Part shown: piece by piece, positions 10,661 to 31,549 of the stretch
How positions within the stretch are numbered: the stretch's first letter is position 1
Layout of the letters: each line of letters starts with the position of its first letter
Assembly (NCBI GenBank): GCA_951813045.1
Contig: CATOTF010000002.1
Span: 2,170,001 to 2,234,000, forward strand
Origin: an uncultured Rhizobiaceae bacterium
GTDB taxonomy: Bacteria > Pseudomonadota > Alphaproteobacteria > Rhizobiales > Rhizobiaceae
Direction of reading: 5' to 3'
DNA length: 64,000 bases
Notes under the pieces: model-generated
Databases searched by the model: none
Seen by the model: the letters and a program-made list of their open reading frames with translations, nothing else
What the model was told of the DNA's origin: nothing
Position numbers and translations under genes: made by a program

Positions 10661-11695
10661 ATGACCGGAAAATTACAAGCACTTATCGAAGAAAAAGGCG
10701 TCTTGCTGGCAGATGGTGCCACTGGCACCAATTTCTTCAATATGGGACTTATTTCTGGAGATGCACCGGAACTTTGGAATGAAGAATCACCTGAAAAGGT
10801 CAAATCCCTTCACCAAAGTTTTGTTGATGCGGGTTCGGACATAATTTTGACCAACACGTTTGGCGGCAACCGGCACCGGCTTAAGCTTCATGATGCCCAG
10901 GATCGGTCACGCGAACTTAACGAAAAAGCCGCAAGATTAGCTCGCGAAGTTGCAGATACGGTTGATAAGACCGTTCTTGTTGCAGGATCAGTCGGCCCGA
11001 CCGGAGAATTATTTGAACCGCTGGGTGAACTAACCCACAAAGACGCGGTCGCTTCATTTGCTGAACAGATGCATGGTTTAAAAGATGGTGGCGCGGATGT
11101 GCTTTGGATCGAAACGATGTCGGCCAGCGAAGAAATCAAAGCTGCAGCAGAAGCCGCTTCGCAGGTTGGTCTGGAATATATATTCACCGCCAGCTTTGAT
11201 ACCGCCGGACGTACAATGATGGGCATTACACCATCAGAGCTTAGTACACTGGCCAACGATCTCCCTTCCTCTCCAACTGCCGTTGGTGCCAACTGCGGGG
11301 TCGGCGCGACTGATCTGCTCTTCTCCATCCTTGATATGACCCAAAATGGCTCCACCGCAGACGGTGGTAATATCGCAGTCATCGCCAAAGCCAACTGCGG
11401 CGTACCGCGCGTGAGTGGCGATCAGGTGATCTACACCGGCACTCCTGAGCTCATGGCAAACTATGTGCAGCTGGCGATTGATGCCGGTGCAAAAATTATC
11501 GGCGGTTGCTGCGGAACTTCTGCAGAGCACCTTGAAGCCATGCGCGTTGCAATCGACACCCATGAAAAATCGGGCAGACCCACCTTGGATGCCGTTGTGG
11601 CCGCAACTGGAGCACTGGTAAACCCTATCTCGCAAGCTGGTTCATCGGATGCCGATAAATCAAGAGGCGGCAGACGCAGAGGTCGCCGGCGTTAA
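10661..11695 (+). CDS. bmt: betaine-homocysteine S-methyltransferase-type enzyme
   Basis: A 344-residue homocysteine methyltransferase, a Zn-dependent TIM-barrel enzyme that passes a methyl group from a betaine-type donor to homocysteine to form methionine. The zinc ligands are visible as Cys212 in GANCGVG and the Cys283-Cys284 pair in IIGGCCGTS; the N-terminal LLADGATGTNFF and TNTFGGNR also fit. ATG 10661 is preferred over an in-frame TTG seven codons upstream because a GAGAGG ribosome site precedes it. The last 15 residues are unusual: an Arg/Gly-rich tail, SRGGRRRGRRR, also present in related form on three other enzymes of the pathway in this window. A perfect palindrome lies just upstream. 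Confidence 0.9.
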   Translation: MTGKLQALIEEKGVLLADGATGTNFFNMGLISGDAPELWNEESPEKVKSLHQSFVDAGSDIILTNTFGGNRHRLKLHDAQDRSRELNEKAARLAREVADTVDKTVLVAGSVGPTGELFEPLGELTHKDAVASFAEQMHGLKDGGADVLWIETMSASEEIKAAAEAASQVGLEYIFTASFDTAGRTMMGITPSELSTLANDLPSSPTAVGANCGVGATDLLFSILDMTQNGSTADGGNIAVIAKANCGVPRVSGDQVIYTGTPELMANYVQLAIDAGAKIIGGCCGTSAEHLEAMRVAIDTHEKSGRPTLDAVVAATGALVNPISQAGSSDADKSRGGRRRGRRR

Positions 11696-11701
11696 ACGAA
11701 C

Positions 11702-12349
11702 TTATACAAACGCTCTCATATGAAAGGCCTGATGTTCAGGTTCGTAAATGTATTTGCACCCTACCGGACAGGCATGACGAGCAATACACCCGCCCGTAAA
11801 GCAATCTGCTCCTTCATCGCTACGCACATGAGATTTGCAGGCAAGATAATCGTACCCTTGGTCCGTAAACGCGCTAACTGGGCAGGATGTTAGACAGGGT
11901 TTATCCGTGCACGTGTCGCAAGGGTGAACACTGTTTATTTTTGAGACCTGACCAAGCTCAATATTAAAGATCAAAGCCGCGCGGAAGGCAGTCCACAGGC
12001 CGTATTCCGGATGAATAAGCAAACCGATTGGTGACTGCTGCATTCCCATTGCTTCCACCGCGTAGCGCTGGAAGGGCCAGACCGGGTCTCCAAATGGAAA
12101 ACGGATTTCCGCACAGATCTGTTCGGCGACGGGAGAAAGGGTGTTGACCGTCCAACGGTTCAATCCATCAGGTTCATCGTCGTTAAATTCCGACGAAGAA
12201 TAAAATTGCGACCAAAGGCTGCTACCAATATTACCAACCAACAGCCCGGCTTTACCGTCCGCATTGAACCAACCAAACGTGTGCAGCCCGGAAGGCGCAA
12301 GCAACACCTGCGCCTTCTGTTCCAGCGACTGCGTGGTATCAACTGTCAT
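11702..12349 (-). CDS. ferredoxin-like protein with two 4Fe-4S sites
   Basis: A 215-residue protein whose C-terminal third carries two cysteine sets: CDTCTDKPCLTSCP near residues 142-156, and a second set spanning about 167-198 ending CIARHACPVG. Together they resemble a two-cluster ferredoxin domain similar to that of QueG-type proteins, though the corrinoid-binding QueG core is not evident. The N-terminal 130 residues match nothing I recognise. It lies 19 bases downstream of the VWA gene, as third gene of a sigma-VWA-ferredoxin run, and converges on bmt with only 6 bases between. Role unknown, probably cytosolic electron transfer. Confidence 0.75.
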   Translation of the reverse strand: MTVDTTQSLEQKAQVLLAPSGLHTFGWFNADGKAGLLVGNIGSSLWSQFYSSSEFNDDEPDGLNRWTVNTLSPVAEQICAEIRFPFGDPVWPFQRYAVEAMGMQQSPIGLLIHPEYGLWTAFRAALIFNIELGQVSKINSVHPCDTCTDKPCLTSCPVSAFTDQGYDYLACKSHVRSDEGADCFTGGCIARHACPVGCKYIYEPEHQAFHMRAFV

Positions 12350-12368
12350 ATTTCGGCCAATTCCAGAT

Positions 12369-14423
12369 TCAATTCGATAATGACCCTGCCATGCGAACCA
12401 ATTGAACGAAAGACGCCCTATAGCCGAATATGTCTTTGCCCTTAAATTCTGATGCCCGGTCCGCGATATCCTTGTAGCTGAAATCAGAAAGAGCGGGATG
12501 ACCTCTCAATTTTTGTCCGAACGCAGCGACCATACTGGCAAAGCCCGCATCGGTAACATCTGTTCCATTCGTAGAACCTTCCAGAATTGGTGTCTTCAGC
12601 AGTTTGCTTTTCTCTTCGCCGGGAATCTTATAACGCAGTTTGAGGAAACCGATTTCATCGGAGGTCTCAGTCTCAGCCGCAGCACCATCCTTTTGATAAC
12701 GCAATGCATCGTTCAAAACCGCAGCGCTCCCAACAGGGGTGAGTTCGTAGATGGCGGTAACCGTATGCCCAGCCCCAATTTCACCAGCATCGATTTTATC
12801 GTTGTTGAAATCTTCACGATTGAGCGCGCGAGTTTCGTAACCAATCAACCTGTACTCGGCAATTTTTGCCGGGTTGAGCTCCACTTGAATTTTTACATCA
12901 TTTGCGATGGGAAACAGCGTGCTGCCCGCTTCTTCCACGAGGGATTTTTGTGCTTCGGCCAGCGTGTCGATATAGGCTGCCTGCCCGTTTCCGTTCTGCG
13001 CCAGGGATTGCATTAGCGCATCATTGTAATTGCCACGCCCAAAGCCAAAAACTGAAAGAAAAATCCCGCTTTTACGCTTTTTCGCAATGAAACCCTTCAA
13101 TTGTTCGGGGTCGGATATCCCAACATTGAAGTCCCCATCTGTCGCCAGCATGACTCGGTTTACGCCGCCTTCAACAAAGCTTTGTTCCGCCAGCCTGTAG
13201 GCCTGTTCGATGCCCTGAGCACCGCCCGTTGAACCACCAGAATAAAGGCTCTCAAGCGCATTGAGAATTTCATGGCTATTGGAAACCGTTGTTGGTTCTA
13301 ACACGGTCCCAGCACGTCCTGCATAGGTAACAATCGACACCATATCTGCTGGATTCAGTTTTTGAAGAAGCAGGCGAAAGCTCTTGATTAGAAGCGGTAG
13401 TTTATCTGACGCACCCATGGAACCTGACACATCCAGCAGGAACACAAGGTTGGCTTTAGGTTGCACCGCACGATCGACATCATAGCCCTTGATCCCGATA
13501 TGCATCAGCTTCGTGTGCTCATTCCAGGGCGTTTTCATGAGCGTAACACTTGGCTTGAACGGTTGAGATTTGTCGCCGGGAACCGGATAAGCATAATCAA
13601 AATAATTGATCATCTCCTCAACCCGCACCATGTCCTTCGGCGGCAGGTTACCGCTGTTCAACATGGCCCGAACGCGGGCATAGGACGCCGTATCAACGTC
13701 AATAGAGAAAGTTGAGACCGGGTCAATTTTGACTGATTTCACTCTATTGTCTTTAAACTGCTCGTATCTTTCACCGCTTACCGAAGAAGTCTCTGATTCG
13801 AGAGTGAATATGGTTTGAACACGCTGCTTTTTGCGAACATTATTAAAACTATCCAACTCGGCTGAACCATCAGGATTAGAACTAATGCCAAGGCGCGTCC
13901 CTTTATTTCTCAGTGGTGCTGGCTGCATCAATACAACACTTGGTTGAGGTTCTATTGATTTAGAAACGCCCGCCGCTTTTGCCGCGTTACGCCTACGTTC
14001 TTCTTTTGCGGGCGCAATCACGCTGTCGCTCAAAATTGTTTCAGCATCAAATTCTACCGGTGGCTGTTCCGTCAATGGAACAACCGCTTGTTGAGGTGCA
14101 AACCCCAGTGGGACTGGCTGCATTATGTTCCACGTCACGACGCCCGCTATGGGCAAAGTCAATGCTCCGGCAAATGTGGCCATTGCCGCGGGCTTCATAT
14201 TCCAAATTGGTTTCAGTGTGGAATTCACGATCATTCTCCATACATTTGTGAGTACGGACGTTTGACGGCCACTAACGCCGGTTCCTTGGGCTACGGCAGA
14301 ATTTATTTCATCCTGCGTTAGATCAAACGCGTCCAAAGCGGCGGAAACAGCCATCTCGCGTTGTTGATCGTTCGGCGTTGGAGCCGTCACACGACTCAGT
14401 ATTTCAAGATCTGGATCTTTCAT
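12369..14423 (-). CDS. VWA-domain protein (YfbK-like), membrane anchored
   Basis: A 684-residue protein. Its cytoplasmic N-terminus leads to one hydrophobic segment near residues 84-102 (MATFAGALTLPIAGVV), then a Pro-rich low-complexity linker, a conserved N-terminal vWF-type block (VDTASYARVRAMLNSGNLPP, about 243-262), a von Willebrand A domain with the metal site DVSGSMG near 330 and TDGDFNVG near 430, and a C-terminal block of the DUF3520 type. The architecture is that of E. coli YfbK. It follows the sigma-factor gene by a single base, so it may serve as that factor's membrane partner, by position only. Confidence 0.85.
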   Translation of the reverse strand: MKDPDLEILSRVTAPTPNDQQREMAVSAALDAFDLTQDEINSAVAQGTGVSGRQTSVLTNVWRMIVNSTLKPIWNMKPAAMATFAGALTLPIAGVVTWNIMQPVPLGFAPQQAVVPLTEQPPVEFDAETILSDSVIAPAKEERRRNAAKAAGVSKSIEPQPSVVLMQPAPLRNKGTRLGISSNPDGSAELDSFNNVRKKQRVQTIFTLESETSSVSGERYEQFKDNRVKSVKIDPVSTFSIDVDTASYARVRAMLNSGNLPPKDMVRVEEMINYFDYAYPVPGDKSQPFKPSVTLMKTPWNEHTKLMHIGIKGYDVDRAVQPKANLVFLLDVSGSMGASDKLPLLIKSFRLLLQKLNPADMVSIVTYAGRAGTVLEPTTVSNSHEILNALESLYSGGSTGGAQGIEQAYRLAEQSFVEGGVNRVMLATDGDFNVGISDPEQLKGFIAKKRKSGIFLSVFGFGRGNYNDALMQSLAQNGNGQAAYIDTLAEAQKSLVEEAGSTLFPIANDVKIQVELNPAKIAEYRLIGYETRALNREDFNNDKIDAGEIGAGHTVTAIYELTPVGSAAVLNDALRYQKDGAAAETETSDEIGFLKLRYKIPGEEKSKLLKTPILEGSTNGTDVTDAGFASMVAAFGQKLRGHPALSDFSYKDIADRASEFKGKDIFGYRASFVQLVRMAGSLSN

Positions 14424-14424
14424 C

Positions 14425-15636: not shown

Positions 15637-15788
15637 ATTTAGCATTTCAGCCGGTGTAAAGCACGTTCCAAATTCTCGAGTGAAATCACCGCCGGCGGAC
15701 GTAACGATTTAATACCGATAGTTCCCTTGCGTTCTGTTGTTCGCAACAACGCGCCACCAGTCGCATACATATTTTAGCCACACTCAGA

Positions 15789-17405: not shown

Positions 17406-18959
17406 TCAGGTGAATGCATCCGGCATGGATTCCTTTTTGCGCGCAACATAATCATCAAGCGCTTCGCGTTTTGTGACGTCCATTTCAGGGGAAACATGGT
17501 CATTAATCCATCTACGGGCGGTTTCGTTTGCCCGTTGGGGGGCAGATTTCGCCCCTTCCGTTTCCCATTGTTCAAACGAGTTATTATCCGCAATCGTGGA
17601 GCGGTAAAACGCGGTCTTGAAATTCGCCTGAGTGTGCTCTGTACCAAGATAATGGGTTACATTGCTCTCGACAATTTCGCGGATAGCGCCCATAGCCTGT
17701 CCGTTTTCGGTCACATCCACACCCTGCGCCATTTTTTGTTGAGCGGCCAATTGGTCACAGTCCATCACGAATTTTTCGTAGGATGAAACCAGACCACCTT
17801 CCAGCCAACCGGCTGCATGCAGCATGAAATTTACACCACCTAGGATAGCCGGGTTAAGCGTGTTCGCGCTTTCGTAAGCGGCTTGGGCATCAGGCAGTTT
17901 TGAACCAGTAAGTGACCCGCCAGAACGGAACGGCAGTTCAAACTTGCGAGCAAATTGTGCAGCCCCAAACAGCACCTGCGCAGGTTCCGGTGTACCAAAT
18001 GCAGGTGCGCCCGATTGCATTGAAATCGACGTCGCGAATGTTCCCATGATAACCGGGGCACCCGGCCGGCAAAGTTGTGAAAACGCAATCGCCGCCTGCG
18101 CTTCAGCCAGCACTTGCGTCAATGTTCCAGCAACAGTCACTGGAGACATGGCACCACCGACGATGAAAGGGGATATGATTGTCGCCTGCCCTGCCCGCGC
18201 GTAGGTTTTCAACGCGCCCAACATCGTATCATCCATCACCAATGGCGAATTGATGTTGATCAACGATGTGACAACGCAATTATTTTCAACAAATTCAGCA
18301 CCGAAGAGAATTTTCGACATCTCCACGGTATCAGCAGCCCGCTCAGGCGCGGTGACAGACCCCATGTAAGGTTTATCCGACAACGTCATATGGGCATGCA
18401 CCATGTCCAGATGACGCTTGTTCACAGCCACATCAACAGGCTCACAAACCGTTCCACCACTATGGTGCATCGCGGGTGCCATATAAGCCATCTTCACGAA
18501 ATTACTGAAATCCTCCATCGTCGCATAGCGCCGTTCGCCTTCCAGATCACGCACAAAGGGCGGACCATAAACCGGCGCAAATACGGTACTATTGCCGCCA
18601 ATAACAACACTACGTTCTGGATTACGAGCGTGTTGCGTAAATTCGGTTGGCGCCGTTTTCATCAGTGAACGGCATAGGCCCTTAGGAAAATGGACACGCT
18701 CGCCTTTCACATCGGCACCGGCGTCCTTCCACATCGCAATTGCTTCCGCATCATCTCGAAACTCAACACCGATCTCCTCCAATACGATGTCTGCATTATT
18801 CTCAATGATTTCCATTGCTTCATCATCAAGAATGTCGAATGTTGCAATTTTGCGGCGTATATAGGGAAGTTGCTCGGTTACACCATTAGTACGGGCAGCA
18901 CGTCGGGCAGCGGCGCCACCGCCACCGCGACCTCTTCTGGCTGATACAACATCACTCAT
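17406..18959 (-). CDS. MttB-superfamily corrinoid methyltransferase (MtgB-like)
   Basis: A 517-residue TIM-barrel methyltransferase of the MttB superfamily, which transfers a methyl group from a quaternary or tertiary amine to a Co(I) corrinoid protein. No in-frame amber codon is present, so it belongs to the non-pyrrolysine branch that includes the glycine-betaine (MtgB), proline-betaine and carnitine enzymes. Glycine betaine is inferred from the nearby dimethylglycine dehydrogenase remnant and GbdR-like regulator. ATG 18959 is chosen over an in-frame TTG three codons upstream. Residues 8-23 form a Gly/Arg-rich leader (RRGRGGGGAAARRAAR) that matches tails on three partner enzymes. It is divergent from the corrinoid-protein gene. 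Confidence 0.87.
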   Translation of the reverse strand: MSDVVSARRGRGGGGAAARRAARTNGVTEQLPYIRRKIATFDILDDEAMEIIENNADIVLEEIGVEFRDDAEAIAMWKDAGADVKGERVHFPKGLCRSLMKTAPTEFTQHARNPERSVVIGGNSTVFAPVYGPPFVRDLEGERRYATMEDFSNFVKMAYMAPAMHHSGGTVCEPVDVAVNKRHLDMVHAHMTLSDKPYMGSVTAPERAADTVEMSKILFGAEFVENNCVVTSLININSPLVMDDTMLGALKTYARAGQATIISPFIVGGAMSPVTVAGTLTQVLAEAQAAIAFSQLCRPGAPVIMGTFATSISMQSGAPAFGTPEPAQVLFGAAQFARKFELPFRSGGSLTGSKLPDAQAAYESANTLNPAILGGVNFMLHAAGWLEGGLVSSYEKFVMDCDQLAAQQKMAQGVDVTENGQAMGAIREIVESNVTHYLGTEHTQANFKTAFYRSTIADNNSFEQWETEGAKSAPQRANETARRWINDHVSPEMDVTKREALDDYVARKKESMPDAFT

Positions 18960-19263: not shown

Positions 19264-19965
19264 ATGTCAGAAGAACCAGAAATTATCCTCTCAGAACTGG
19301 CGACAGAAGAACTCGTTCTTCAAATGCATGACGATCTATATGATGGCCTGAAAGAGGAGATCGAAGAAGGTACGCAAATTCTGCTCGACCGTGGATGGGC
19401 CCCTTACAAAGTGCTTACCGAGGCCCTTGTTGAAGGCATGCGAATTGTAGGTGAAGACTTTCGCGACGGTATCCTATTCGTCCCGGAAGTCTTGTTATCC
19501 GCCAATGCCATGAAAGGTGGGATGTTTATCCTCAGACCACTTCTTGCAGCAACCGGCGCACCGAAACAGGGCAAAATGGTGATTGGTACCGTAAAAGGCG
19601 ACATTCACGACATCGGGAAAAATCTCGTTGGCATGATGATGGAAGGTGCCGGTTTTGACGTGATCGACCTTAGCATTAACAATCCGGTGGAAAACTACCT
19701 GGATGCCATCGAAGAGCATGAACCTGATATCGTGGGGATGTCCGCATTGCTGACCACCACCATGCCTTACATGAAAGTCGTCATCGATACGATGAAGGAA
19801 AAAGGCATTCGCGATGACTACACCGTGCTCGTTGGTGGGGCTCCGCTAAACGATGAGTTTGGTGAAGCGATTGGCGCTGACGCCTATTGTCGCGACGCAG
19901 CGGTTGCTGTTGAAACGGCAAAGGATTTTATGATTCGCAAACATAATCAACGTCAATCGGCCTGA
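19264..19965 (+). CDS. corrinoid (B12-binding) methyl-carrier protein
   Basis: A 233-residue two-domain corrinoid protein of the MtbC/MttC/MtgC type. The N-terminal four-helix cap (about 15-100) precedes a Rossmann B12-binding domain with GDIHDIGKN at residues 112-120, where His115 would be the lower axial cobalt ligand, and further motifs SALLTTTMPYM and GGAPLNDEF. It carries the methyl group between the MttB-like enzyme (divergent gene upstream) and the CH3-THF methyltransferase. It leads a plus-strand run, but a strong terminator follows it, so it may be expressed more highly than the genes after it. AGAAGGA precedes the ATG. Confidence 0.93.
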   Translation: MSEEPEIILSELATEELVLQMHDDLYDGLKEEIEEGTQILLDRGWAPYKVLTEALVEGMRIVGEDFRDGILFVPEVLLSANAMKGGMFILRPLLAATGAPKQGKMVIGTVKGDIHDIGKNLVGMMMEGAGFDVIDLSINNPVENYLDAIEEHEPDIVGMSALLTTTMPYMKVVIDTMKEKGIRDDYTVLVGGAPLNDEFGEAIGADAYCRDAAVAVETAKDFMIRKHNQRQSA

Positions 19966-20051: not shown

Positions 20052-20660
20052 ATGAATCAAGATGTGAAACAGCAAGCCCGCAAAACCCGCGTCATCGGAT
20101 GCGGCATGATTGCGCGCGAAATCCTGGCCGTTTGCGAGCAGTTGGGGCTAGACCACATTGATCTAAAATGCCTTCCCGCCATGTGGCATCATTATCCTGA
20201 CAAAATTGCCCCCGGTGTGGACAGTGCAATTGAATCCGCGAAATCTGACGGTTTTGAACACATCTTTGTGGCCTATGCCGATTGCGGGACGGGCGGCCAT
20301 CTGGATGCTGTATGTGAAAAACATGGGGTCGAACGCATTGCCGGTCCCCATTGTTTCTCATTCTACATGGGCAACGAAACCTTTACCGAAGAAACCGACG
20401 ACCACATTACCTGTTTCTTCATGACAGACTTTTTGGCGCGCCATTTCGAGACATTTCTCGTGAAGCCTTTAGGTTTAGACAGGCACCCGGAATTACTTGA
20501 AATGTATTTCGGTAATTACACAAAAATGATCTACATAGCTCAAACTGACGATGAAACACTGAACAGCAACGCGGAGTGTGCCGCGGAATTTCTTGGGCTG
20601 GACTACGAACGTCGGGCAACAGGTTATGGAGATTTAACACAAGCATTAATAGCCAATTAG
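20052..20660 (+). CDS. DUF1638-family protein
   Basis: A 202-residue protein of the DUF1638 family, found in methanogens and in bacteria next to corrinoid methyltransferase genes. Features seen: an N-terminal RVIGCGMIAREIL strand-loop, conserved CLPAMWHHYPDKI, a Cys/Gly loop YADCGTGGHLD near 76-86 and GPHCFSFYMG near 99-108. Conserved Cys and His residues suggest metal or corrinoid handling. The biochemical role is unknown. It lies 30 bases after the terminator that follows the corrinoid-protein gene, and 144 bases before the next gene. No signal peptide, hence cytosolic. Confidence 0.85.
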   Translation: MNQDVKQQARKTRVIGCGMIAREILAVCEQLGLDHIDLKCLPAMWHHYPDKIAPGVDSAIESAKSDGFEHIFVAYADCGTGGHLDAVCEKHGVERIAGPHCFSFYMGNETFTEETDDHITCFFMTDFLARHFETFLVKPLGLDRHPELLEMYFGNYTKMIYIAQTDDETLNSNAECAAEFLGLDYERRATGYGDLTQALIAN

Positions 20661-20804: not shown

Positions 20805-21107
20805 ATGGCACAGCTACAAATCGTTTATTGGCGTGACATTCCCGCTCAAGTGATGGTCAAGGCAGGGCGTCGCAATCAGGCAAAGCGTGAACTCTCTTTA
20901 CGGTTCACTGAGGCGATCGATATGGCAGCGATGCGAACTGGTGCCGCAGAAACTGACGATTATCTGGCAGAATGGCGGCGCGGCGATGCGCAACCGGTTG
21001 GAGATGATCTGGAAGCCGAAGCCCAGGCGGCGGCGGATGCCATTGAAAATGAATATGACAAGGCCCGACTTGTGGCTTTGGTCAAGAACGGTGGTAAAGA
21101 GGTGTGA
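20805..21107 (+). CDS. 'virulence factor'-family small protein next to MetF
   Basis: A 100-residue protein of the family generically labelled virulence factor (PF13769 type), with the typical IVYWRDIPAQV start and a Arg-rich ELSLRFTEAIDMAAMR helix. It is almost certainly not about virulence: it lies 2 bases before a MetF-like gene inside a corrinoid/C1 operon, and the pairing suggests a small partner or subunit of that flavoprotein. The ATG has an AGAGAG-type ribosome site upstream. Function inferred only from context. Confidence 0.78.
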   Translation: MAQLQIVYWRDIPAQVMVKAGRRNQAKRELSLRFTEAIDMAAMRTGAAETDDYLAEWRRGDAQPVGDDLEAEAQAAADAIENEYDKARLVALVKNGGKEV

Positions 21108-21109
21108 AC

Positions 21110-21970
21110 ATGGCAAAAATTAATGCATCCATCGAAGTCAGTGCTAAACATGTCATTGACGGGAAACTTGACAGTTCCATGTTGCCCGGCGGTACACGCG
21201 TTTACATTACTGATGTCGGCATCGACCCGGTGGAAGATATGATTTCGGCGGCCCGTAAAGTCACGGAGATGGGGTATCAAACTGTGCCTCATATTCCCGC
21301 TCGCCGCATAGAAAGTGAAGCTGCGTTGGATCACCGACTTTCCGGCTTCGTCAATGAAGCTGGTGTGTTTGACATCTTGATCATCGCCGGTGAAGCCGAC
21401 GAGCAAATGGGGCCTTATTCAAAAACGCTTGATGTTTTGCAATCCGGGATGATCGACAAACTGGGTATCCGCCATGTCGCAGTTGGCGGCCATCCGGAAG
21501 GCAATGTCGCATACGACGGTCAGGACGTCATGCAGGTATTGCGCGATAAAATTGCCTTTGCAGATCAAAGCGACGCAGAATTTCGCATCGCAACACAATT
21601 TGGATTTGATGGGGCAAACTTCATCAAATGGATAAAAGATGTCGACGCAGCTGGCATCACAGCTCCTATCCATTTGGGGGTGGCGGGTCCGGCCAAAATC
21701 ACAACCCTGATCAAATATGCTGCACTTTGCGGAGTCGGAAATTCTCTGAATTTCTTCAAAAAACGAACCAGTGCCATTGCCCAACTCGCGACAAAACACT
21801 CACCAGAAGATGTTGTTGGGCCGGTTGAAGCCGCATGGCAACAGGGCACCGGAAACCTGGCTCAAATTCACGTTTTTCCATTTGGCGGATTGCAAGCATC
21901 AGCAACATGGTTGACCGAACGGGGCAGTTTCCAGTTTGAAGAACAGCAGGCTTCTGCTGTACCGGCCTGA
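21110..21970 (+). CDS. MetF-like methylenetetrahydrofolate reductase
   Basis: A 286-residue flavin TIM-barrel protein related to MetF but divergent from the canonical form, a broken copy of which lies at 27253. Supporting segments: YQTVPHIPARRIES near 61-74 (folate/flavin face), ILIIAGEADEQMGPY, VGGHPEGN near 122-129, ATQFGFD and the GVAGPAKITTL loop. In methylotrophic-type demethylation such a protein would oxidise CH3-THF to CH2-THF, the reverse of its methionine-synthesis role. ATG 21110 lies two bases after the upstream stop; an in-frame GTG overlaps that stop and is a less likely start. Confidence 0.83.
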   Translation: MAKINASIEVSAKHVIDGKLDSSMLPGGTRVYITDVGIDPVEDMISAARKVTEMGYQTVPHIPARRIESEAALDHRLSGFVNEAGVFDILIIAGEADEQMGPYSKTLDVLQSGMIDKLGIRHVAVGGHPEGNVAYDGQDVMQVLRDKIAFADQSDAEFRIATQFGFDGANFIKWIKDVDAAGITAPIHLGVAGPAKITTLIKYAALCGVGNSLNFFKKRTSAIAQLATKHSPEDVVGPVEAAWQQGTGNLAQIHVFPFGGLQASATWLTERGSFQFEEQQASAVPA

Positions 21971-22938: not shown

Positions 22939-23047
22939 TGTGAATCCCGGAGACAAAATGACCACAGAAATGGTTGGGTAATCTGACCGTCGCGGAGTAA
23001 AATTCCGCACTCTGACACCTTGTGCTTGTGAGTATTAGGTGGGGAAG

Positions 23048-24547
23048 ATGTATTCTGTGGATTTGTATAGTCGGGTGCGTCGAGCGTGCCATGTGGATGG
23101 GAAGAACAATAGCGAGGTGGCCCGTTTGTTCGGGATTGATCGCAAAACCGTGGCGAAGATCCTGAAGCACTCGGTTCCGCCCGGTTATCAAAGAACGACC
23201 GCGCCTGTTCGCCCGAAGTTGGATCCGTTTGTTGGGATAATTGATCAGATCCTGAAAGACGACAAAAAGGTCATCAAAAAGCAACGGCACACAGCCAAGC
23301 GTATTCATGCGCGGTTACGGGATGAGCACGGGTTCACTGGCGGGATCACCATTGTCACTGATTATGTGCGTGAGAAGCAAAGACGAACCCAGGAGGTGTT
23401 TGTTCCTCTGGTTCACGCGCCCGGCCATGCTCAGGTCGATTTTGGTGAGACGTTCGGCGTGATCGACGGTGTCGAACGCAAGCTGCATTACATCGCTATA
23501 TCGTTGCCGCATTCGGATGCGTTCTTCATGAAGGCGTATCCGGCGGAAACAACAGAAGCCTTCTGTGACGGTCACAATGCTGCGTTTGCTTTCTTCGGCG
23601 GTGTGCCGTTGTCGATGCTCTACGACAACACCGTGATTGCAGTTGCAAAGATCCTGGGCGGTGGCAAACGGATACGCACGAGAACTTTCTCAGAGCTACA
23701 ATCGCACTATCTGTTTGAGGATAAGTTTGGTCGCCCTGGCAAAGGCAATGATAAAGGGAATGTCGAAGGCGTCATTGGTTACGGTCGCAGGAACTTTCTC
23801 ATCCCAGCCCCACGGTTCGACAGCTTTGATGCCTTGAACGCCTGGTTGGAAGAATGCTGCCTGAAGCGTCAGGATGATGTTGTTCGCGGACATGGTGAGA
23901 GTATTGGTGAACGATTGCTGAGAGACCTGGACGCGCTGATGGCATTGCCCCCAACGCCATACGACGCGTGTGAAAAGTTTAGCACGCGGGCAACGTCAAT
24001 CTCGATGATCCGCTACCGCAATAATGATTACTCCGTTCCTGTCGCCTTTGCCCATCATGAGGTTCAGGTTCGCGGTTACATCCATGAGGTTGTGATTGGC
24101 AGTGGAACCGAGATTATTGCCCGCCATCGTCGGTCTTATGAGAAGGCAGACATGATCTTCGACCCGCTTCACTATCTGCCCTTGCTGGAACAAAAGGTAG
24201 GTGCTCTCGATCAGGCGGCACCATTGCAAGGCTGGGGTTTACCCGATGCATTTGCGATCCTTCATCGTTTATTAGAAGCCCGCATGGGTAAGGCGGGAAA
24301 ACGCGAGTATGTTCAGATCCTGCGTCTGCTGGAAACTTTTGAGCTGGAGCACGTTCACGCCGCAATCCAACAAGCTTTGGATCTGGGTGCCATTGGCTAT
24401 GATGCGATCAAGCACCTTATTCTGTGCCGGATCGAGCGGCGACCGCCCAGGCTTGATCTCGACATCTACCCCTATTTGCCCAAAGCGGTGGTCGAGACGA
24501 CAAAACCTGCCAGCTATGCCGTGCTGTTGTCGGAGGCGGCAGCATGA
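23048..24547 (+). CDS. istA: IS21 transposase IstA
   Basis: About 499 residues. N-terminal helix-turn-helix (NSEVARLFGIDRKTVAKIL, about 20-40), then a DDE integrase core: HAQVDFGETF with the first Asp, and SMLYDNTVIAV with the second, then the KGNVEGVIGY Glu region. These cut and join IS ends. ATG 23048 has AGGTGGGG upstream; an in-frame GTG three codons earlier is possible. The stop overlaps the istB start by 4 bases (ATGA). Confidence 0.93.
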   Translation: MYSVDLYSRVRRACHVDGKNNSEVARLFGIDRKTVAKILKHSVPPGYQRTTAPVRPKLDPFVGIIDQILKDDKKVIKKQRHTAKRIHARLRDEHGFTGGITIVTDYVREKQRRTQEVFVPLVHAPGHAQVDFGETFGVIDGVERKLHYIAISLPHSDAFFMKAYPAETTEAFCDGHNAAFAFFGGVPLSMLYDNTVIAVAKILGGGKRIRTRTFSELQSHYLFEDKFGRPGKGNDKGNVEGVIGYGRRNFLIPAPRFDSFDALNAWLEECCLKRQDDVVRGHGESIGERLLRDLDALMALPPTPYDACEKFSTRATSISMIRYRNNDYSVPVAFAHHEVQVRGYIHEVVIGSGTEIIARHRRSYEKADMIFDPLHYLPLLEQKVGALDQAAPLQGWGLPDAFAILHRLLEARMGKAGKREYVQILRLLETFELEHVHAAIQQALDLGAIGYDAIKHLILCRIERRPPRLDLDIYPYLPKAVVETTKPASYAVLLSEAAA

Positions 24548-25320
24548 ACGACACTGTTACCGATACACCGCAAGTTCTACTCAAACATCATCTGACCAAA
24601 CTTCGGCTGCCAACCTTCCAGAGTGAATATACCAAACAGGCCCAACAATGTGCCGCTGAGAATAAGGATCATGTCCAATATCTCCTGCGGTTATGTGAGT
24701 TGGAGCTGATTGAACGTGAGCGCCGAATGGTGGAGCGACGCATCAAAGCTGCGAAGTTCCCGGCAACCAAGAGCCTCGACAGCTTTGACTTCAAAACGAT
24801 CCCGTCAGTGAACAAGGTGCTCGTGATGGAACTGGCCCGTTGCGAGTACGCTGCGAAACGCCAAAACATCATCGCGTTAGGACCAAGTGGAACCGGCAAA
24901 ACCCATGTTGCCCTCGGCCTTGGACTGGCTGCCTGCCAAAAGGGGATGAAAGTCCGCTTCACCACGGCTGCTGCACTGGTTCATGAGATGATCGAGGCCG
25001 TTGATGAACGTCGCTTGCAACGGCATCAAAAACAACTGGCAGCTCAAGACCTGCTGATCATTGACGAACTGGGCTTCGTCCCTCTCTCCAAAACCGGGGC
25101 GGAGTTGCTGTTCGAAGTAATCAGCCAACGGTATGAACGCGGTTCCATCATCATCACATCCAATCTACCATTCGACGAATGGACAGAGGTCTTCGGATCA
25201 GAACGCCTAACGGGCGCAATACTCGACCGGCTGACACACCACGTCCACATCCTGGAGATGAATGGTGAAAGCTACAGGTTGCACCAGAGCCGAAAACAAA
25301 AATCTGTTCAAATCAACTGA
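24544..25320 (+). CDS. istB: IS21 helper ATPase IstB
   Basis: A 258-residue AAA+ ATPase of the DnaA/DnaC type that acts with IstA in target choice. Walker A GPSGTGKTHVALGLG near 113 and Walker B LLIIDELGFVPLS near 170 are intact, with SNLPFDEW as sensor region. It overlaps istA by ATGA. Confidence 0.94.
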   Translation: MNDTVTDTPQVLLKHHLTKLRLPTFQSEYTKQAQQCAAENKDHVQYLLRLCELELIERERRMVERRIKAAKFPATKSLDSFDFKTIPSVNKVLVMELARCEYAAKRQNIIALGPSGTGKTHVALGLGLAACQKGMKVRFTTAAALVHEMIEAVDERRLQRHQKQLAAQDLLIIDELGFVPLSKTGAELLFEVISQRYERGSIIITSNLPFDEWTEVFGSERLTGAILDRLTHHVHILEMNGESYRLHQSRKQKSVQIN

Positions 25321-25406: not shown

Positions 25407-25412
25407 CACGTG
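25407..25412. repeat. IS21 copy 1 target-site duplication, right
   Basis: Second CACGTG copy, directly after the IS end ...GATTGACA; pairs with 22933-22938. Confidence 0.85.
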
Positions 25413-25484: not shown

Positions 25485-25584
25485 TAGTCAAACCCCCATA
25501 TTTGTCAGGAATTAATACTATTGATCTCGCTTTAAGTTAGATTGAATGACTATGGTTAAAGTTTAAGTACGCAATGTTTGTGAT

Positions 25585-25781: not shown

Positions 25782-25846
25782 TGAGACAGAGGTTTGATTT
25801 TTCTTAAGAGATGATTTTGGTTCATCGTAGCCCTTATGGAGCGAAG

Positions 25847-26221
25847 ATGAGACATAAATCAGGAACCCAAGGATCAGGTTCAGAGAAATTGATCCGAACC
25901 ATCAAACGCAAGACCCGCCGTCAGTATAGTGCGGAGGAAAAGATCCGCATTGTGCTTGATGGCTTGCGCGGTGAAGACAGCATAGCTGAACTGTGCCGCC
26001 GTGAAGGTCTTGCTGAAAGCATGTACTACAAATGGTCGAAGGAGTTTATGGAGGCCGGTAAAAAGCGTCTGTCAGGCGATATAGTGCGTGAGGCTTCCAC
26101 CGATGAGGTCAAAGGTCTGCGCCGTGAAGCCCGTGATCTGAAGGAATGCGTGGCAGATCTCACGCTGGAAAACCGTCTTCTTAAAAAAAGCATGATCGCG
26201 GATGGGGAGGATATCGAATGA
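25847..26221 (+). CDS. IS3-family transposase OrfA
   Basis: About 124 residues: N-terminal basic region, HTH domain (YSAEEKIRIVLDGLRGEDSIAELCRREG..., about 26-60) and a C-terminal leucine-zipper-like coil ending LTLENRLLKKS. It binds the IS ends. ATG 25847 is preferred; an ATG at 25811 is in frame. It overlaps orfB by ATGA. Confidence 0.88.
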   Translation: MRHKSGTQGSGSEKLIRTIKRKTRRQYSAEEKIRIVLDGLRGEDSIAELCRREGLAESMYYKWSKEFMEAGKKRLSGDIVREASTDEVKGLRREARDLKECVADLTLENRLLKKSMIADGEDIE

Positions 26222-27198
26222 GATACCCAGCATCTGAGAAACTGGAAATCATCCGAATTGTTGAACAATCACATCTGCCAGCCAAGGTGACACTTGATAA
26301 GCTTGGCGTCTCACGGCCAACTTTTTATCGCTGGTATGATTTGTATCAGCGATTGGGTGAGACAGGATTGGAAGACAAACGTTCTGGTCCCAACAGAGCC
26401 TGGAACCGCGTGCCAGAAAATATACGGGCACAGATCATTGATCTGGCCCTTGATCAACCGGAACTGTCTCCTCGTGAACTGGCTGTGACATTCACAGACA
26501 CGAAGGCCTATTTTGTATCGGAAAGCTCAGTGTACCGACTGCTCAAGGCCCTGGACCTGATCACCAGCCCGGCATTTATCGTCATGAAAGCTGCCAGTGA
26601 GTTCCGCGACAAGACCACAGCCATCAACCAGCTGTGGCAAACAGACTTCACCTATCTGAAGGTCATTGGCTGGGGTTGGTTCTATCTCAGTACGATCCTT
26701 GATGATTATTCGCGATACATCATTGCCTGGAAGCTGTGTACCACCATGAACACATCGGATGTGACCGATACATTGGAAATGGCGCTTCAGGCCTCAGGCT
26801 GCGACAGGGCCAACGTTGCGCATAAACCCCGGCTACTATCTGATAATGGCCCCTGCTACATATCCAGTGATCTGGCAGAGTGGTTGGATGGCAAAGGCAT
26901 GGGTCATGTTCGCGGTGCGCCTTATCACCCGCAAACCCAAGGCAAGATTGAACGCTGGCATCAAACCCTGAAGAACCGCATCTTGCTGGAACACTACTTC
27001 ATACCAAGTGACTTAAACCGGCAGATCGAAGCTTTCATCGAACATTATAATCATCACAGATACCACGAGAGCCTGAGTAATCTCACGCCTGCGGACGTCT
27101 ACTTCGGGCGCAAAAATGAGATATTGAAGCGAAGAGAAAGGATCAAACAAAAAACCATCGAAACGCGGCGCTTGCAACACCGCAAACAAGCCGCATAA
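26218..27198 (+). CDS. IS3-family transposase OrfB
   Basis: A 326-residue DDE transposase. HTH at about 10-40 (VTLDKLGVSRPTFYRW), then the catalytic D-D-E residues in WQTDFTYLKV, LSDNGPCYIS and GKIERWHQTLKNR. It begins with its own ATG overlapping the orfA stop, in a different frame. Confidence 0.92.
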   Translation: MRYPASEKLEIIRIVEQSHLPAKVTLDKLGVSRPTFYRWYDLYQRLGETGLEDKRSGPNRAWNRVPENIRAQIIDLALDQPELSPRELAVTFTDTKAYFVSESSVYRLLKALDLITSPAFIVMKAASEFRDKTTAINQLWQTDFTYLKVIGWGWFYLSTILDDYSRYIIAWKLCTTMNTSDVTDTLEMALQASGCDRANVAHKPRLLSDNGPCYISSDLAEWLDGKGMGHVRGAPYHPQTQGKIERWHQTLKNRILLEHYFIPSDLNRQIEAFIEHYNHHRYHESLSNLTPADVYFGRKNEILKRRERIKQKTIETRRLQHRKQAA

Positions 27199-27252
27199 TA
27201 CAAACAACAGATGAGCTAGAGTCTCTCTTAAATCAGACCACCATCTGTCTCA

Positions 27253-27736
27253 AATACCCTGACTACGAACAATCACCGGCAAGATCAACGGCTCTGGGAT
27301 GAACTTCCGGGTAGGCAGAAACCGAAATATCAAACGGATATTCCTTCAACAACGCCTCAATAGCTCCAGCGACAGAACCGAATCCAGGCAGCTCTTCACC
27401 CCCTTCACTAATGGCGTCGCCGCGCAGCACAACCAATCTTGTTATGTCATTGGTCCAAAGGTGTCCGGCAAATTCGATCAACGAATCGCGATTGAAATGG
27501 TTCAGAGCAATATGACAGGCAGTTGGCACTTCGTTGAGAACTTGCAGGCGTAACGCCCAGTCAAGAGTTCCTTCTGCAACAGAGCCGCCTGCCCCAAAAG
27601 TAATTGTCTGAAAACTTGGCTCGAAACGACGCAATGCATGCGCCCCGGTCATCAATGCCCTCTCGGAGGAAAGCGTTTTTGGAGGAAAATATTCAATGCT
27701 TACCGTCGGGTAACCGTTATTTTCTATGCGAGTCAT
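27253..27736 (-). pseudogene. metF remnant (canonical MetF, N-terminal half)
   Basis: From ATG 27736, behind a good CAGGAG ribosome site, about 157 codons match the N-terminal half of canonical methylenetetrahydrofolate reductase: SIEYFPPKT, FQTITFGAGGS, HIALNHFNRDSL, LVVLRGD and SVSAYPEVHP. The frame then hits a stop 10 bases before the IS3 end and the C-terminal half is absent. It is divergent from the CH3-THF methyltransferase gene and shares its upstream region and operator, so it was probably part of the same C1 cluster. The divergent MetF-like gene at 21110 remains. Confidence 0.85.
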
Positions 27737-27853
27737 TTTTTGGACTCCTGTTAGGATAGCTTCAATCTCGACCGTTCAATTAGCGCCAAAATATGCGACA
27801 ATTCGTGTCGTGATTCAACAATACATCAAATTATTTTAATGATCAACATTGAT

Positions 27854-27869
27854 ATAAAGATTTCTTTAT
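27854..27869. promoter_or_regulatory. palindromic operator upstream of mtgA-like gene
   Basis: ATAAAGA-TT-TCTTTAT lies between the metF remnant and the CH3-THF methyltransferase gene. Its 7-bp arms and 2-bp spacing are identical to the site before bmt (10623-10638). It lies 149 bases before the GTG, so it may cover a promoter rather than the ribosome site. Confidence 0.65.
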
Positions 27870-28018
27870 GCAATTTTATCAATCCATAGCTGCCAGCGCC
27901 GATTCCGGCTTTCTACATGTCGCATTTGGCGCAGCCCCACGCCTGAAAAGCCGATGATAGTCGGTAAAACACATAGCTCGCGCTGCCTGGACTACGCCGC
28001 GCTTTTGGAGAATATATC

Positions 28019-28966
28019 GTGACAAGAACCATCGTTGCTTCGGCCACCAAAGAGGTCGTTATAGGATTTGACCAGAAGTTTTGCGTGATTGGTGAGCGCA
28101 TTAACCCAACTGGCCGCAAAAAACTGGCTGCTGAAATGCAGGCTGGAAATTTCGAGACTGTCAGAGCAGATGCGTTGGCGCAGGTTGCAGCAGGTGCGAC
28201 CATGCTGGATGTCAACGCAGGCGTCACATCTGTGGACCCGAATGCCACCGAGCCGGGTCTAATGGTTCAGACCCTGGAAATCGTCCAGGACCTTGTCGAC
28301 GTGCCCCTGTCAATTGACTCATCGGTGTCCGCTGCTATCGAAGCAGGTCTGAAAGTTGCTAAAGGCCGCCCCCTGGTGAACTCAGTCACCGGTGAGATGG
28401 AAAAACTGGAAGCCATCCTGCCCCTCATCAAACAATATGACGTACCCGTTGTTGCGATCTCGAACGATGAGACGGGAATTTCGGAAGACCCCGACGTGCG
28501 ATTTGAAGTCGCAAAAAAGATTGTGCAACACGCCGCTGATTACGGCATTCCAGCCCATGATATCGTAGTAGACCCTCTCGTTATGCCGATTGGCGCGATG
28601 GGCACCGCCGGTAAACAGGTCTTTGCCCTTGTGCGCCGCCTGCGCGAAGAGCTTGGCGTGAACACAACCTGTGGGCTGTCTAATATTTCTTTCGGCCTGC
28701 CCCACCGCCACGGCATTAACGCCGCCTTCATCCCCATGTGCATCTCCGCCGGTATGACCAGCGCCATCATGAACCCGTGCCGCCCGCAGGAAATGGAAAT
28801 GGTCCACTCAGCCAACGTTTTGTCAGGCAACGACGCGGATTGCGGACAATGGATCAGAAACTATAAAGACCACGCGGCCAACACCGCCGCAGGTGTAACC
28901 GCTCCGACCACCGCAGCAGGCAGCGCAAGCCGCAGACGCGGTGGCCGCGCCGCGCGGGCGGGTTGA
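28019..28966 (+). CDS. methyltetrahydrofolate:corrinoid methyltransferase (MtgA-like)
   Basis: A 315-residue pterin-binding TIM-barrel protein of the AcsE/MtgA/MetH-folate-domain type, which exchanges methyl groups between corrinoid protein and tetrahydrofolate. Markers are VIGERINPTGRKKL at about 22-35, DVNAGVTSVDP near 63, LSIDSSVSAAIEAGL, LVNSVTGE, and the GLSNISFGLPHR loop near 222. It starts at GTG behind GGAGAATATATC. The last 14 residues form an Arg/Gly-rich tail (SRRRGGRAARAG), not part of the usual enzyme. It opens an operon with a small membrane protein and the corrinoid activator. Confidence 0.9.
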   Translation: MTRTIVASATKEVVIGFDQKFCVIGERINPTGRKKLAAEMQAGNFETVRADALAQVAAGATMLDVNAGVTSVDPNATEPGLMVQTLEIVQDLVDVPLSIDSSVSAAIEAGLKVAKGRPLVNSVTGEMEKLEAILPLIKQYDVPVVAISNDETGISEDPDVRFEVAKKIVQHAADYGIPAHDIVVDPLVMPIGAMGTAGKQVFALVRRLREELGVNTTCGLSNISFGLPHRHGINAAFIPMCISAGMTSAIMNPCRPQEMEMVHSANVLSGNDADCGQWIRNYKDHAANTAAGVTAPTTAAGSASRRRGGRAARAG

Positions 28967-28973
28967 TCTAGAC

Positions 28974-29498
28974 TTGTTAATCAACAAACCACATTCACCA
29001 CATCGAACGTATTTCCGGGAAACTTCCAGAAATACTTATAGCGCTGCAAAGTATCTGAGCGATACAATTGGTATCATTTTAAGAGCTATCACGGCCTATG
29101 CGGTAGGGATTATCCTATTAATTGTGAGTTCAAAGGAGCTTGCGGTTGATCAGGCATCAATTTTGGAATCCACCCAAAATTGGATGGGTTTTAGCATGGC
29201 TATGATATTCATTTTCGCTGCATTTGGAAGCTTGCTTTTACTGTGCAATGCAGCAGGAAACTATCTATTTTCATGGATCACTATTGGAAGTGGAAAGATG
29301 TCTTTGATCGTATCTTCCATTTTGGCGACCATTATATTGAATGCTGTATCTCCTCCTATAGAAAAGTTAGCAACCGAAGGGTTATTAAAGAGTGCTTTGA
29401 TCAGTAATTCGGACAAAAATTCAATTCAAAAAGGCGGGTTTGGTAAATGGGTATTGGATCATATGTCACCGCTCAATTCTGAACCTAATTGGCCATGA
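28974..29498 (+). CDS. uncharacterised three-helix membrane protein
   Basis: About 174 residues from TTG 28974 (a GTG at 28941, inside mtgA, is also possible). Three hydrophobic segments lie at about 32-52, 70-96 and 105-125 of that product, with a polar C-terminus. I recognise no family. Base composition is clearly more A+T-rich than the flanking genes, which hints at different origin. Its TGA overlaps the ATG of the corrinoid activator gene (ATGA), so it is probably translated and coupled. No function is assigned. Confidence 0.6.
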   Translation: MLINKPHSPHRTYFRETSRNTYSAAKYLSDTIGIILRAITAYAVGIILLIVSSKELAVDQASILESTQNWMGFSMAMIFIFAAFGSLLLLCNAAGNYLFSWITIGSGKMSLIVSSILATIILNAVSPPIEKLATEGLLKSALISNSDKNSIQKGGFGKWVLDHMSPLNSEPNWP

Positions 29499-31549
29499 CC
29501 AACACAACTGATCCCCTCGTAATCTTCACCCCCAGCGGTAAACGCGGCAACTTTCCCATTGGCACGCCGATCCTAGACGCGGCGCGCGAACTTGGTGTCT
29601 ATGTAGAATCCGTTTGCGGTGGGCGCGGTATATGCGGGCGGTGTCAGGTGGCCCCGGAATTTGGCCATTTTGCCAAACACGGTATTGAATCGAAATCTGA
29701 CGCTGTTTCCGAATGGTCATCCAAAGAGGTACGCTACACGGATAAACGCGGCGAATTGAAAGACGGGCGGCGTCTCTCCTGCTCCACTACAATTCAGGGC
29801 CCATTGGTCGTTGATATCCCCTCTGACACGGTGGTCAATCAACAGACCATCCGCAAAGCGGCAGATACCCGTCACATTGAGCGTAATCCTGCTGTTCAGC
29901 TTTGTTATGTCGAGGTGGATGAGCCAGACATGCACAAACCTTTGGGCGATCTTGATCGTCTCAAGAAGGAGTTGGAAAAAGACTGGGGCTTTGAGGACAT
30001 TCTGGTTTCCCAACACATTATGCCCCACGTGCAAAAGACACTTCGGGCTGGCAAATGGACGGTCACAGCCGCAATCCATCAAGATCTGGATTCCTCCCGC
30101 CCGACTATGATTGCCCTCTATCCCGGCCTTAAAAACGAAGCCTACGGCATCGCCTGTGATATCGGGTCCACCACCATCGCGATGCACTTGTCCTCTTTAT
30201 TGTCCGGACACACGTTGGCTTCATCGGGCACGTCCAACCCTCAAATCAGGTTCGGCGAAGATGTCATGAGCCGCGTCTCCTACGTGATGATGAATCCTGA
30301 TGGTCGTGCTGCCATGACCAAAGCGGTGCGCGATGCGGTCAATGGATTAATCCAAAACGTCTGCACAGAAGCTGAGGTGGAACCGGAAGATATTCTCGAC
30401 AGCGTATTCGTCGGCAACCCGATCATGCACCACCTGTTTCTTGGGATTGACCCTACCGAACTGGGCGGCGCACCTTTCGCGCTCGCTGTATCCGGTGCTG
30501 TTCATACATGGGCAAGCGAGCTTGACTTGTCGATGAACGAAGGCACCCGCGTTTACATCCTACCCTGTATCGCAGGCCACGTGGGCGCAGATGCTGCTGC
30601 TGCTACGCTTTCAGAAGCACCTCATAAAGAAACAGAACTCTCCCTGCTTGTGGATGTGGGTACCAACGCTGAAATCGTACTTGGCAAACAGGGACGCACC
30701 CTCGCCTGCTCTTCCCCCACTGGCCCGGCTTTTGAAGGGGCGGAAATTTCATGCGGCCAGCGCGCCGCCCCAGGCGCAATCGAGCGCGTTCGCATTGACC
30801 CGGTCACGCTGGAACCACGCATCCGTATCATTGGCGTCGACATTTGGTCAGACGAACCGGGTTTTTACGAACAGGCAAAGGTAACCGGTGTCACCGGCAT
30901 TTGCGGTTCCGGTATCATCGAAGTGATGGCGGAAATGTTCCTCGCCGGAGTGATCGATGAAGACGGGGTTCTCGATGGTTCAAAAGCTGGAACGAGCGAC
31001 CGTATATTCGAGAAGAACCGAACATTCTCCTACCTGCTCTGGCGCACGGAAGATGGACCAGACATCACAGTCAGTCAAACGGATGTCCGCGCCATTCAAA
31101 TGGCGAAAGCTGCCCTTTACGCAGGCGTTAAACTGCTGATGGAAAAACATGGCGTTGAGCGGGTAGAGAAAATCAGCCTCGCCGGTGCATTTGGTACATT
31201 CATTGATCCCAAATATGCGCTGGTTCTGGGTCTGGTACCCGATTGTGAAATTGCCAAGGTCAAAGCAGTTGGCAATGCCGCCGGCACCGGTGCACGCATG
31301 GCGCTACTGAACCGCAACCACCGGCGCGAAATCGAAGATACTGTGCAAAACATCGAGAAAATCGAAACCGCTCTTGAAGCGAACTTCCAACGACATTTCG
31401 TCAATGCCATGGCATTCCCCAATAAGGTGGAGCCGTTCCCGCGCCTGCAGGCTGAGGTAAAGCTTCCGGACAGAAAACCGGGAGATGCTCCCAACACGGA
31501 CGGCTCAGCTGCAGCTCCTCGCAGACGAGGCGGCCGCCGTCGAGCCTGA
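29495..31549 (+). CDS. reductive activator of corrinoid protein (RACo/RamA-type, ASKHA domain)
   Basis: A 684-residue protein that would reduce oxidised Co(II) corrinoid back to Co(I) using ATP. An N-terminal 2Fe-2S domain has Cys41, Cys47, Cys50 and Cys96 (CGGRGICGRC...LSC); a linker domain follows to about 220; then an ASKHA ATPase region with CDIGSTTIAMHL near 222, VGNPIMHHLFLG near 307 and GSGIIEVMAEMFLAG near 470. It matches the DUF4445-type activators. The C-terminus ends in an Arg/Gly-rich tail, APRRRGGRRRA. It overlaps the membrane-protein gene by ATGA and ends the operon. Confidence 0.9.
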   Translation: MTNTTDPLVIFTPSGKRGNFPIGTPILDAARELGVYVESVCGGRGICGRCQVAPEFGHFAKHGIESKSDAVSEWSSKEVRYTDKRGELKDGRRLSCSTTIQGPLVVDIPSDTVVNQQTIRKAADTRHIERNPAVQLCYVEVDEPDMHKPLGDLDRLKKELEKDWGFEDILVSQHIMPHVQKTLRAGKWTVTAAIHQDLDSSRPTMIALYPGLKNEAYGIACDIGSTTIAMHLSSLLSGHTLASSGTSNPQIRFGEDVMSRVSYVMMNPDGRAAMTKAVRDAVNGLIQNVCTEAEVEPEDILDSVFVGNPIMHHLFLGIDPTELGGAPFALAVSGAVHTWASELDLSMNEGTRVYILPCIAGHVGADAAAATLSEAPHKETELSLLVDVGTNAEIVLGKQGRTLACSSPTGPAFEGAEISCGQRAAPGAIERVRIDPVTLEPRIRIIGVDIWSDEPGFYEQAKVTGVTGICGSGIIEVMAEMFLAGVIDEDGVLDGSKAGTSDRIFEKNRTFSYLLWRTEDGPDITVSQTDVRAIQMAKAALYAGVKLLMEKHGVERVEKISLAGAFGTFIDPKYALVLGLVPDCEIAKVKAVGNAAGTGARMALLNRNHRREIEDTVQNIEKIETALEANFQRHFVNAMAFPNKVEPFPRLQAEVKLPDRKPGDAPNTDGSAAAPRRRGGRRRA

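Follow-up and report, generated by a model that had tools for sequence, protein, structure and literature searches.

A split methionine synthase (split MetH) has been described in Phaeobacter inhibens (PMC5764234), and the main text of PMC12478193 presents MtgBCDE of Ruegeria pomeroyi as a dual methionine synthase and glycine-betaine methyltransferase. In the model given there, methyl-cobalamin is borne by MtgC and acted on by MtgB, MtgD, and MtgE, and RamA and DUF1638 are predicted as cobalamin reactivators; in R. pomeroyi, neither the synthesis of methionine nor growth with glycine betaine is possible without mtgC and mtgD, and the roseobacter MtgC is set apart from the MtgC of anaerobes (PMC12478193). 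Across alphaproteobacteria, according to the main text of PMC5764234, the occurrence of DUF1638 nearly tracks that of the reactivase. Here, such a locus is analyzed in a stretch of 64,000 nucleotides (the window) from an uncultured Rhizobiaceae bacterium (assembly GCA_951813045.1, contig CATOTF010000002.1, positions 2,170,001 to 2,234,000), whose genome comprises 4.84 Mb in two contigs, with 50.5% guanine plus cytosine (GC) in the sampled stretches. Four of its enzymes carry short terminal segments rich in arginine and glycine, referred to as tags. In marine and soil bacteria, nearly all enzymes touching the shared B12 carrier of this system are tagged, while the carrier and the neighboring enzymes are not, and this pattern suggests an unrecognised way of holding a split enzyme together.

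Pfam and NCBIfam assign the encoded proteins to this single published system, comprising MtgE, MtgD, RACo/RamA, an MtgB-like MttB, MtgC, DUF1638, and a MetF2-like protein, which bears out an earlier reading made from the letters of the window (the sequence-only reading) in placing four tagged enzymes in one corrinoid pathway. The modules PF02574, PF00809, PF02310 with PF02607, and PF06253 each lie on a protein of their own, and a reactivase (PF14574, PF17651, PF17650) and DUF1638 (PF07796) are also encoded. The tagged proteins belong to the four enzyme classes that need the cobalamin of MtgC: bmt/MtgE, which binds homocysteine in the split methionine synthase (10661..11695, plus strand; PF02574, 213 bits; NF005718, 505.5 bits, cutoff 338), an MttB-family, MtgB-like methyltransferase (17406..18959, minus strand, with the ATG at 18959 and the stop ending at 17406; PF06253, 743 bits), MtgD, a pterin-binding methyl-tetrahydrofolate:corrinoid methyltransferase (28019..28966, plus strand; PF00809, 104 bits; NF005719, 397 bits), and a RACo/RamA-like corrinoid reactivase (29495..31549, plus strand; PF14574, 305 bits; PF17651, 166 bits; PF17650, 89 bits). 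The untagged proteins are the cobalamin carrier MtgC (19264..19965, plus strand; PF02310, PF02607), which scores below the NCBIfam MtgC cutoffs (NF047995, 210.6 against 370 bits; NF047996, 178.4 against 310 bits), the DUF1638 protein (20052..20660, plus strand; PF07796, 100 bits), and the MetF2-like protein (21104..21970, plus strand; PF02219, 23.1 bits, slightly below the cutoff of 24).

All four tags are present in the translations. MtgE ends in ...DKSRGGRRRGRRR, with the tail SRGGRRRGRRR at 11660..11692 (plus strand); MtgD ends in ...GSASRRRGGRAARAG, its last 12 residues, SRRRGGRAARAG, being encoded at 28928..28963 (plus strand); the translated RACo ends with APRRRGGRRRA (31514..31546, plus strand); and MttB starts with MSDVVSARRGRGGGGAAARRAAR, in which codons 8-23 encode the tag RRGRGGGGAAARRAAR (18938-18891, minus strand). 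Net charges range from +4 to +6. The sequence-only reading had recognized all four segments, and it was also right that MtgC, DUF1638, and the MetF-like protein lack them. Its description of the four enzymes as unrelated folds stands for RACo and fails for the other three, since the MttB, pterin-binding, and homocysteine-binding enzymes, though members of different families, all have the TIM-barrel fold, and RACo alone differs. The AlphaFold model of MtgD has a mean predicted local distance difference test score (pLDDT) of 82.7 (23 sequences); residues 289-315 score below 50 and lack secondary structure, with a tail coil of about 37-44, and the MtgD tail is accordingly predicted to be disordered.

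The tags were detected with a strict test, which requires a 12-residue window with at least four arginines and at most one lysine, one hydrophobic residue, and two prolines, lying in the final 30 or the initial 45 residues of the protein. Among 59 mechanically called genes of the window, the matches are exactly the four enzymes; four of 59 can be chosen in 455,126 ways. A background sample of 347 genes from 20 stretches, each of 20 kb (400 kb in all, about 8% of the genome), with mechanical calls and starts, yields three passes at the C end and three at the N end, from five different genes, none of the pathway, and by eye none of the five has an Ala/Gly/Ser linker followed by an arginine-glycine (RG) tail. 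As the four enzymes are all the matches in the window and such ends are rare in the genome sample, their tagging is not chance. An earlier, looser tail test passed seven C ends and ten N ends of the 347 genes as well as a transposase of the window (26218-27198), and the stricter test took its place. A pattern search of the source genome for six consecutive arginine or glycine codons was uninformative, with 107 hits against 242 for a reversed control. In 80 named loci from a scan described below, 52 of 987 closed background open reading frames (ORFs) pass the strict test, many resembling wrong-frame ORFs of GC-rich DNA. In two loci (L153, 18989-20854; L154, 18904-20853; Rhizobium rhizogenes / Rhizobiales), an ORF of 622-650 amino acids without a match to the pathway has an acidic stretch followed by a terminal RRRGRTAAE, and may represent an unrelated protein that employs a similar tail.

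The C-terminal tails are conserved in orthologues. A search for MtgD in 190 genomes of the class of the window was positive in 35, the source genome included, with 37 places, of which 30 were fetched, and the tail passes the strict test in 30/30 of these loci. RACo is present in 34 of the 35 MtgD genomes; 30 of its 35 places were fetched and 27 of these are tailed, two misses (L054, L070) having an arginine-rich stretch followed by an extension. MtgE is tailed in 25 of 28 orthologue-type loci, and one miss (L096) has a basic end. Six of the 35 genomes (G041, G148, G168, G176, G178, G185) contain only MetH-strength matches to MtgE; their MtgD and RACo are tailed nevertheless, wherever ends were read. 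Named genomes were also scanned with the MtgD core, and of at least 588 relatives the 80 best were analyzed; most belong to Rhizobiales and Rhodobacterales, among them Sinorhizobium, Mesorhizobium, Roseibium, and Ruegeria. Selected for their similarity, they are not a random draw, and some may also be part of the class sample. Under the strict test, 80/80 MtgD, 52/55 RACo ORFs, and 3/3 MtgE of these loci are tailed; of the RACo misses, L196 ends in GRRRRR by eye, L174 is one of the two pieces of a broken frame, and the L203 ORF covers only positions 4-373. In a second class of the phylum, a RACo search found 23 places in 22 of 369 genomes. By eye, the RACo of the MtgC-type system is tailed in 20/20 places (L338-L357, 44-59% identity) and MtgD in the same loci in 19/19, without a single discordant pair, the tails being present or absent on both proteins together.

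The MttB family carries its tag at the N-terminus. The source genome contains nine PF06253 places, representing seven intact genes and one gene in two pieces (L007 and L010, G000:C2:1858452-1859896, with a stop inside one match), and all seven intact paralogues begin with a basic, arginine-rich segment by eye. Automatic start finding left 18 of 65 MttB proteins below a loose threshold because, in many cases, internal methionines were picked as starts; the tests instead scanned as far as 75 and 60 residues ahead of the domain, a range that may include untranslated codons. With a laxer criterion (20 residues with at least five arginines in the domain frame, the start codon not being fixed), 30 of 35 N-terminal stretches from 18 genomes pass, and L262, L320, L325, and L326 are short and basic by eye. 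In an overlapping set of 70 MttB loci, five lacked an alignment and 59 of the 65 aligned pass the strict test (L278 and L305 are the same gene). The strict test is passed by 23 of 31 MttB in the named loci; of the eight that fail, seven have a tag split by a GASGGAAA-like spacer, and the eighth (L137) is misaligned. The MttB on a plasmid of Phaeobacter inhibens keeps the tag behind its annotated start, and the tag is present in the sequence of 4yyc, a 'putative trimethylamine methyltransferase'. Some tags shrink to segments like MARQRRTRKD (L312), so what is conserved is a composition and not a motif. MttB places number up to 14 per genome (G034), some being fragments.

Untagged proteins delimit the pattern as clearly. 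At the C end, 0/61 MtgC, 0/31 DUF1638, and 0/51 MetF2 orthologue ORFs pass the strict test, nor does any of six complete MetH proteins from class-sample genomes with a tailed MtgD. DUF1638 thus has no tail despite its literature link to cobalamin reactivation. At usable starts, the N-end test is passed by 1/25 DUF1638, 1/44 MetF2, 0/13 MtgC, 0/78 MtgD, 0/24 RACo, and 0/3 MtgE, against 22/30 MttB. In the second class, three distant RACo proteins (L358-L360, 34-39% identity) are untailed by eye, as are the pterin enzymes adjoining two of them. Within the order of the window itself, a genome (G364, L268/L374) has a RACo and a pterin enzyme with their own corrinoid protein, all untagged, and the distant RACo of G202 is also untagged. 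Untagged homologues thus occur in other corrinoid systems, and it is membership in the MtgC system, and not the fold of the enzyme, that goes with the tag. These families thus bear genuine tags in concentrated form, with a composition that is conserved and does not depend on GC. What unites the tagged proteins is that they have to contact the cobalamin of MtgC, and MtgC itself is tag-free and very acidic. The sequence-only reading had suggested a tag for docking or co-localization; unrelated proteins in the 347-gene sample of the genome seldom have such tails, and orthologues in two classes retain them, so its functional reading survives both comparisons, but it missed the rule of contact with MtgC.

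MtgC is the proposed receptor. Its N-terminal 40 residues (19264..19383, plus strand; acidic minus basic = 12) are more acidic than those of 347/347 sampled proteins of the genome, and the whole protein is more acidic than 98.3% of them. In 56 orthologues (5/61 were dropped for lack of an anchor), the first 40 residues contain 12-18 aspartates and glutamates and a mean of 1.1 lysines and arginines. The AlphaFold model of MtgC (25 sequences, mean pLDDT 84.7) places a confident helix at residues 14-26, inside the acidic segment, and its top Foldseek matches are MttC (7xcn, first), MetH B12 domains, and 4jgi. It is proposed, with what we regard as an even chance of being right, that the disordered, arginine-rich tags serve as electrostatic docking tails bringing the client enzymes to MtgC. 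The clients would be MttB-family substrate:corrinoid methyltransferases with N-terminal tags and MtgD, MtgE, and the reductive activator RACo with C-terminal tags. MetH joins its modules covalently, while in the split system they are separate proteins that would compete for one carrier. The tag would replace the covalent linker of MetH by fast, loosely specific electrostatic capture at the acidic N-terminus and cap helices of MtgC, after which contacts between the folded domains would position the cobalamin. The tagged families have to bring a substrate or an electron to the MtgC cobalamin, and the untagged MetF2 and MetH have no such need. By binding MtgC, functional tags might make methyl transfer faster, channel it, or shield cob(I)alamin in aerobic cells. 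A broader idea is more tentative, though still quite conceivable: an arginine 'client tag' on at least four families may turn the covalent MetH into an open hub, with tagged enzymes plugging into MtgC. If so, this would explain how the many MttB enzymes of a genome can all use a single carrier and how the system gains further substrates.

Several observations weigh against docking to MtgC. The cap segments of MttC and MtaC equal MtgC in per-residue acidity, which weakens the idea that the acidity of MtgC is special to the tagged clade; corrinoid proteins are acidic in general, and MtgC is the putative partner of the tags. In 3 of the 35 MtgD genomes (G071, G077, G176), MtgC was not found, and a repeat search at an E-value of 1e-5 gave no more than a MetH-type place in G176 and nothing in G071 or G077; in G176, which is 93% complete, tagged MtgD, RACo, and MttB lie together on one contig, and the 16.6 kb of it that were read include no MtgC. 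A tail is missing, in the frames read, from one RACo (L069) and from the divergent MtgE of L093 and L094, and the tag from the divergent MttB of L327. Basic N-termini also occur in two MttB-like proteins beside other corrinoid proteins (L328, L330); a third such protein (L329) has an N-terminus that is not basic. Solved relatives leave little room for a tag: two residues after the core in the MtgD relatives 1f6y and 2yci, nine at the tail site in RACo 3zyy, and 15 and 4 before the aligned part in the MtgB homologues 2qne and 9yce. The anaerobic homologues thus seem to work without a tag. Several anaerobic MttB homologues are reported in the main text of PMC12478193 to share one carrier, so sharing alone may not require tags.

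RGG or RG occurs in many of the tags, and many others are RRRRRR or mixtures of arginine and glutamate; the tail sequences cannot be aligned, yet are alike in composition. Such a composition resembles RG/RGG segments, and lysine is nearly excluded in the named loci (means of 0.14 in MtgD and 0.37 in RACo over the last 20 residues), which would suit binding to nucleic acid, or multivalent binding, no less well than binding to a simple acidic patch. The tags might accordingly drive co-assembly of the enzymes with one another or with a polyanion such as RNA, DNA, or polyphosphate, in a condensate or a nucleoid- or ribosome-associated cluster to which MtgC would be a soluble substrate. We consider this rather unlikely but worth serious attention, as the tags are short, with only +4 to +6 net charge in the window, some lysine enters the second-class tails, and C-tails are confined to proteins needing MtgC, to the exclusion of MetF2 and MetH. 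A common scaffold other than MtgC would account for one tag type across several enzyme families, and DUF1638, more acidic than 97.4% of the sampled proteins, would be a candidate, its presence nearly matching that of the reactivase in the account of PMC5764234. Its N-terminus is not acidic, however, and this option appears less probable again than co-assembly.

Roles in solubility, turnover, or export are improbable. The RR pairs near the MttB N-terminus superficially recall twin-arginine (Tat) signals, but by eye no hydrophobic stretch follows the RR of the window MttB, and the other three of the four tags are C-terminal. Low-complexity drift, which the sequence-only reading had kept as an alternative, or GC-driven codon creep at protein ends is contradicted and scarcely credible. 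Arginine and glycine codons (CGN, GGN) are GC-rich, but across 60 ends of MtgD and RACo the number of arginines in the last 25 residues is unrelated to locus GC (Spearman rho 0.04, p 0.75); a locus of 34% GC still has nine. The 347-gene background is nearly free of such ends. C-tails are also missing on MtgC, DUF1638, and MetF2 of the same loci, on the six MetH proteins, and on homologues in related but different corrinoid systems.

The surroundings of the cluster hold further features. Between the MetF2-like gene and mtgD lie a pair at 23039-25320, presumably an IS21-like istA/istB, and the transposase at 26218-27198, which we take to be of the integrase type and whose C-terminal 45 residues recur in ORFs at two further sampled places (L241, L251). 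With the transposase end recurring elsewhere, it seems that mobile elements have broken up the cluster. Adjoining the transposase, a short MetF-type ORF (27263-27736, 157 amino acids, PF02219 positions 4-161 of 287) is probably a remnant. Directly downstream of bmt, on the opposite strand, the protein encoded at 11702-12349 matches MMACHC weakly (19.8 bits against a cutoff of 27), has a ferredoxin-like cysteine pattern, and is a possible candidate for cobalamin handling. A 185-amino-acid ORF of membrane-spanning look (28941-29498) lies between mtgD and the RACo gene and overlaps the mtgD end in another frame. An Rfam scan of 7500-34000 gave zero matches at the gathering threshold.

The enzymes and the pathway are already known, and the tags are unreported within the literature surveyed. 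The main text of PMC12478193 does not contain 'arginine', 'disordered', 'tail', or 'docking'; that of PMC5764234 lacks 'tail' and 'disordered', its four mentions of 'arginine' concerning amino-acid synthesis; and that of PMC12366255 lacks 'arginine' and 'disordered'. Among the literature matches listed, some sets of which were mostly unrelated papers and carry little weight, titles and abstract openings gave no such tags, most subscription papers lying outside this scope.

Compared with MtgBCDE of roseobacters, the locus has the same set of an MttB-family enzyme, MtgC, MtgD, MtgE, RamA/RACo, DUF1638, and MetF2; the difference lies in the tags, found here and reaching a second class, which the main texts of PMC12478193 and PMC5764234 do not mention. 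With the MttB-MttC and related systems of anaerobes it shares a homologous methyltransferase and corrinoid protein, MttC (7xcn) heading the fold matches of MtgC, whereas the solved relatives there leave little room for tags; the specificity of each corrinoid protein in such systems is discussed in the main text of PMC9842639. Short assembly or cargo tags, such as microcompartment encapsulation peptides and RGG boxes, likewise place one short terminal peptide on different enzymes. Encapsulation peptides are amphipathic helices, and this does not fit MtgD, the one modelled among the four tagged proteins, whose tail is predicted as coil (pLDDT 37-44). MetH, the single-chain cobalamin-dependent methionine synthase, has the same three catalytic modules, but they are covalently joined, and 6/6 MetH from genomes with a tailed MtgD have no arginine C-tail. 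The tags offer a signature by which clients of this widespread pathway of glycine betaine and methionine can be recognized in sequence, and uncharacterised MttB-family enzymes could be assigned to MtgC-dependent systems with its help. If docking is true, it would be a simple natural means for aerobes to channel a cofactor that is reactive and sensitive to oxygen from one separate protein to another, and the tag would be a portable design for split multi-enzyme systems.

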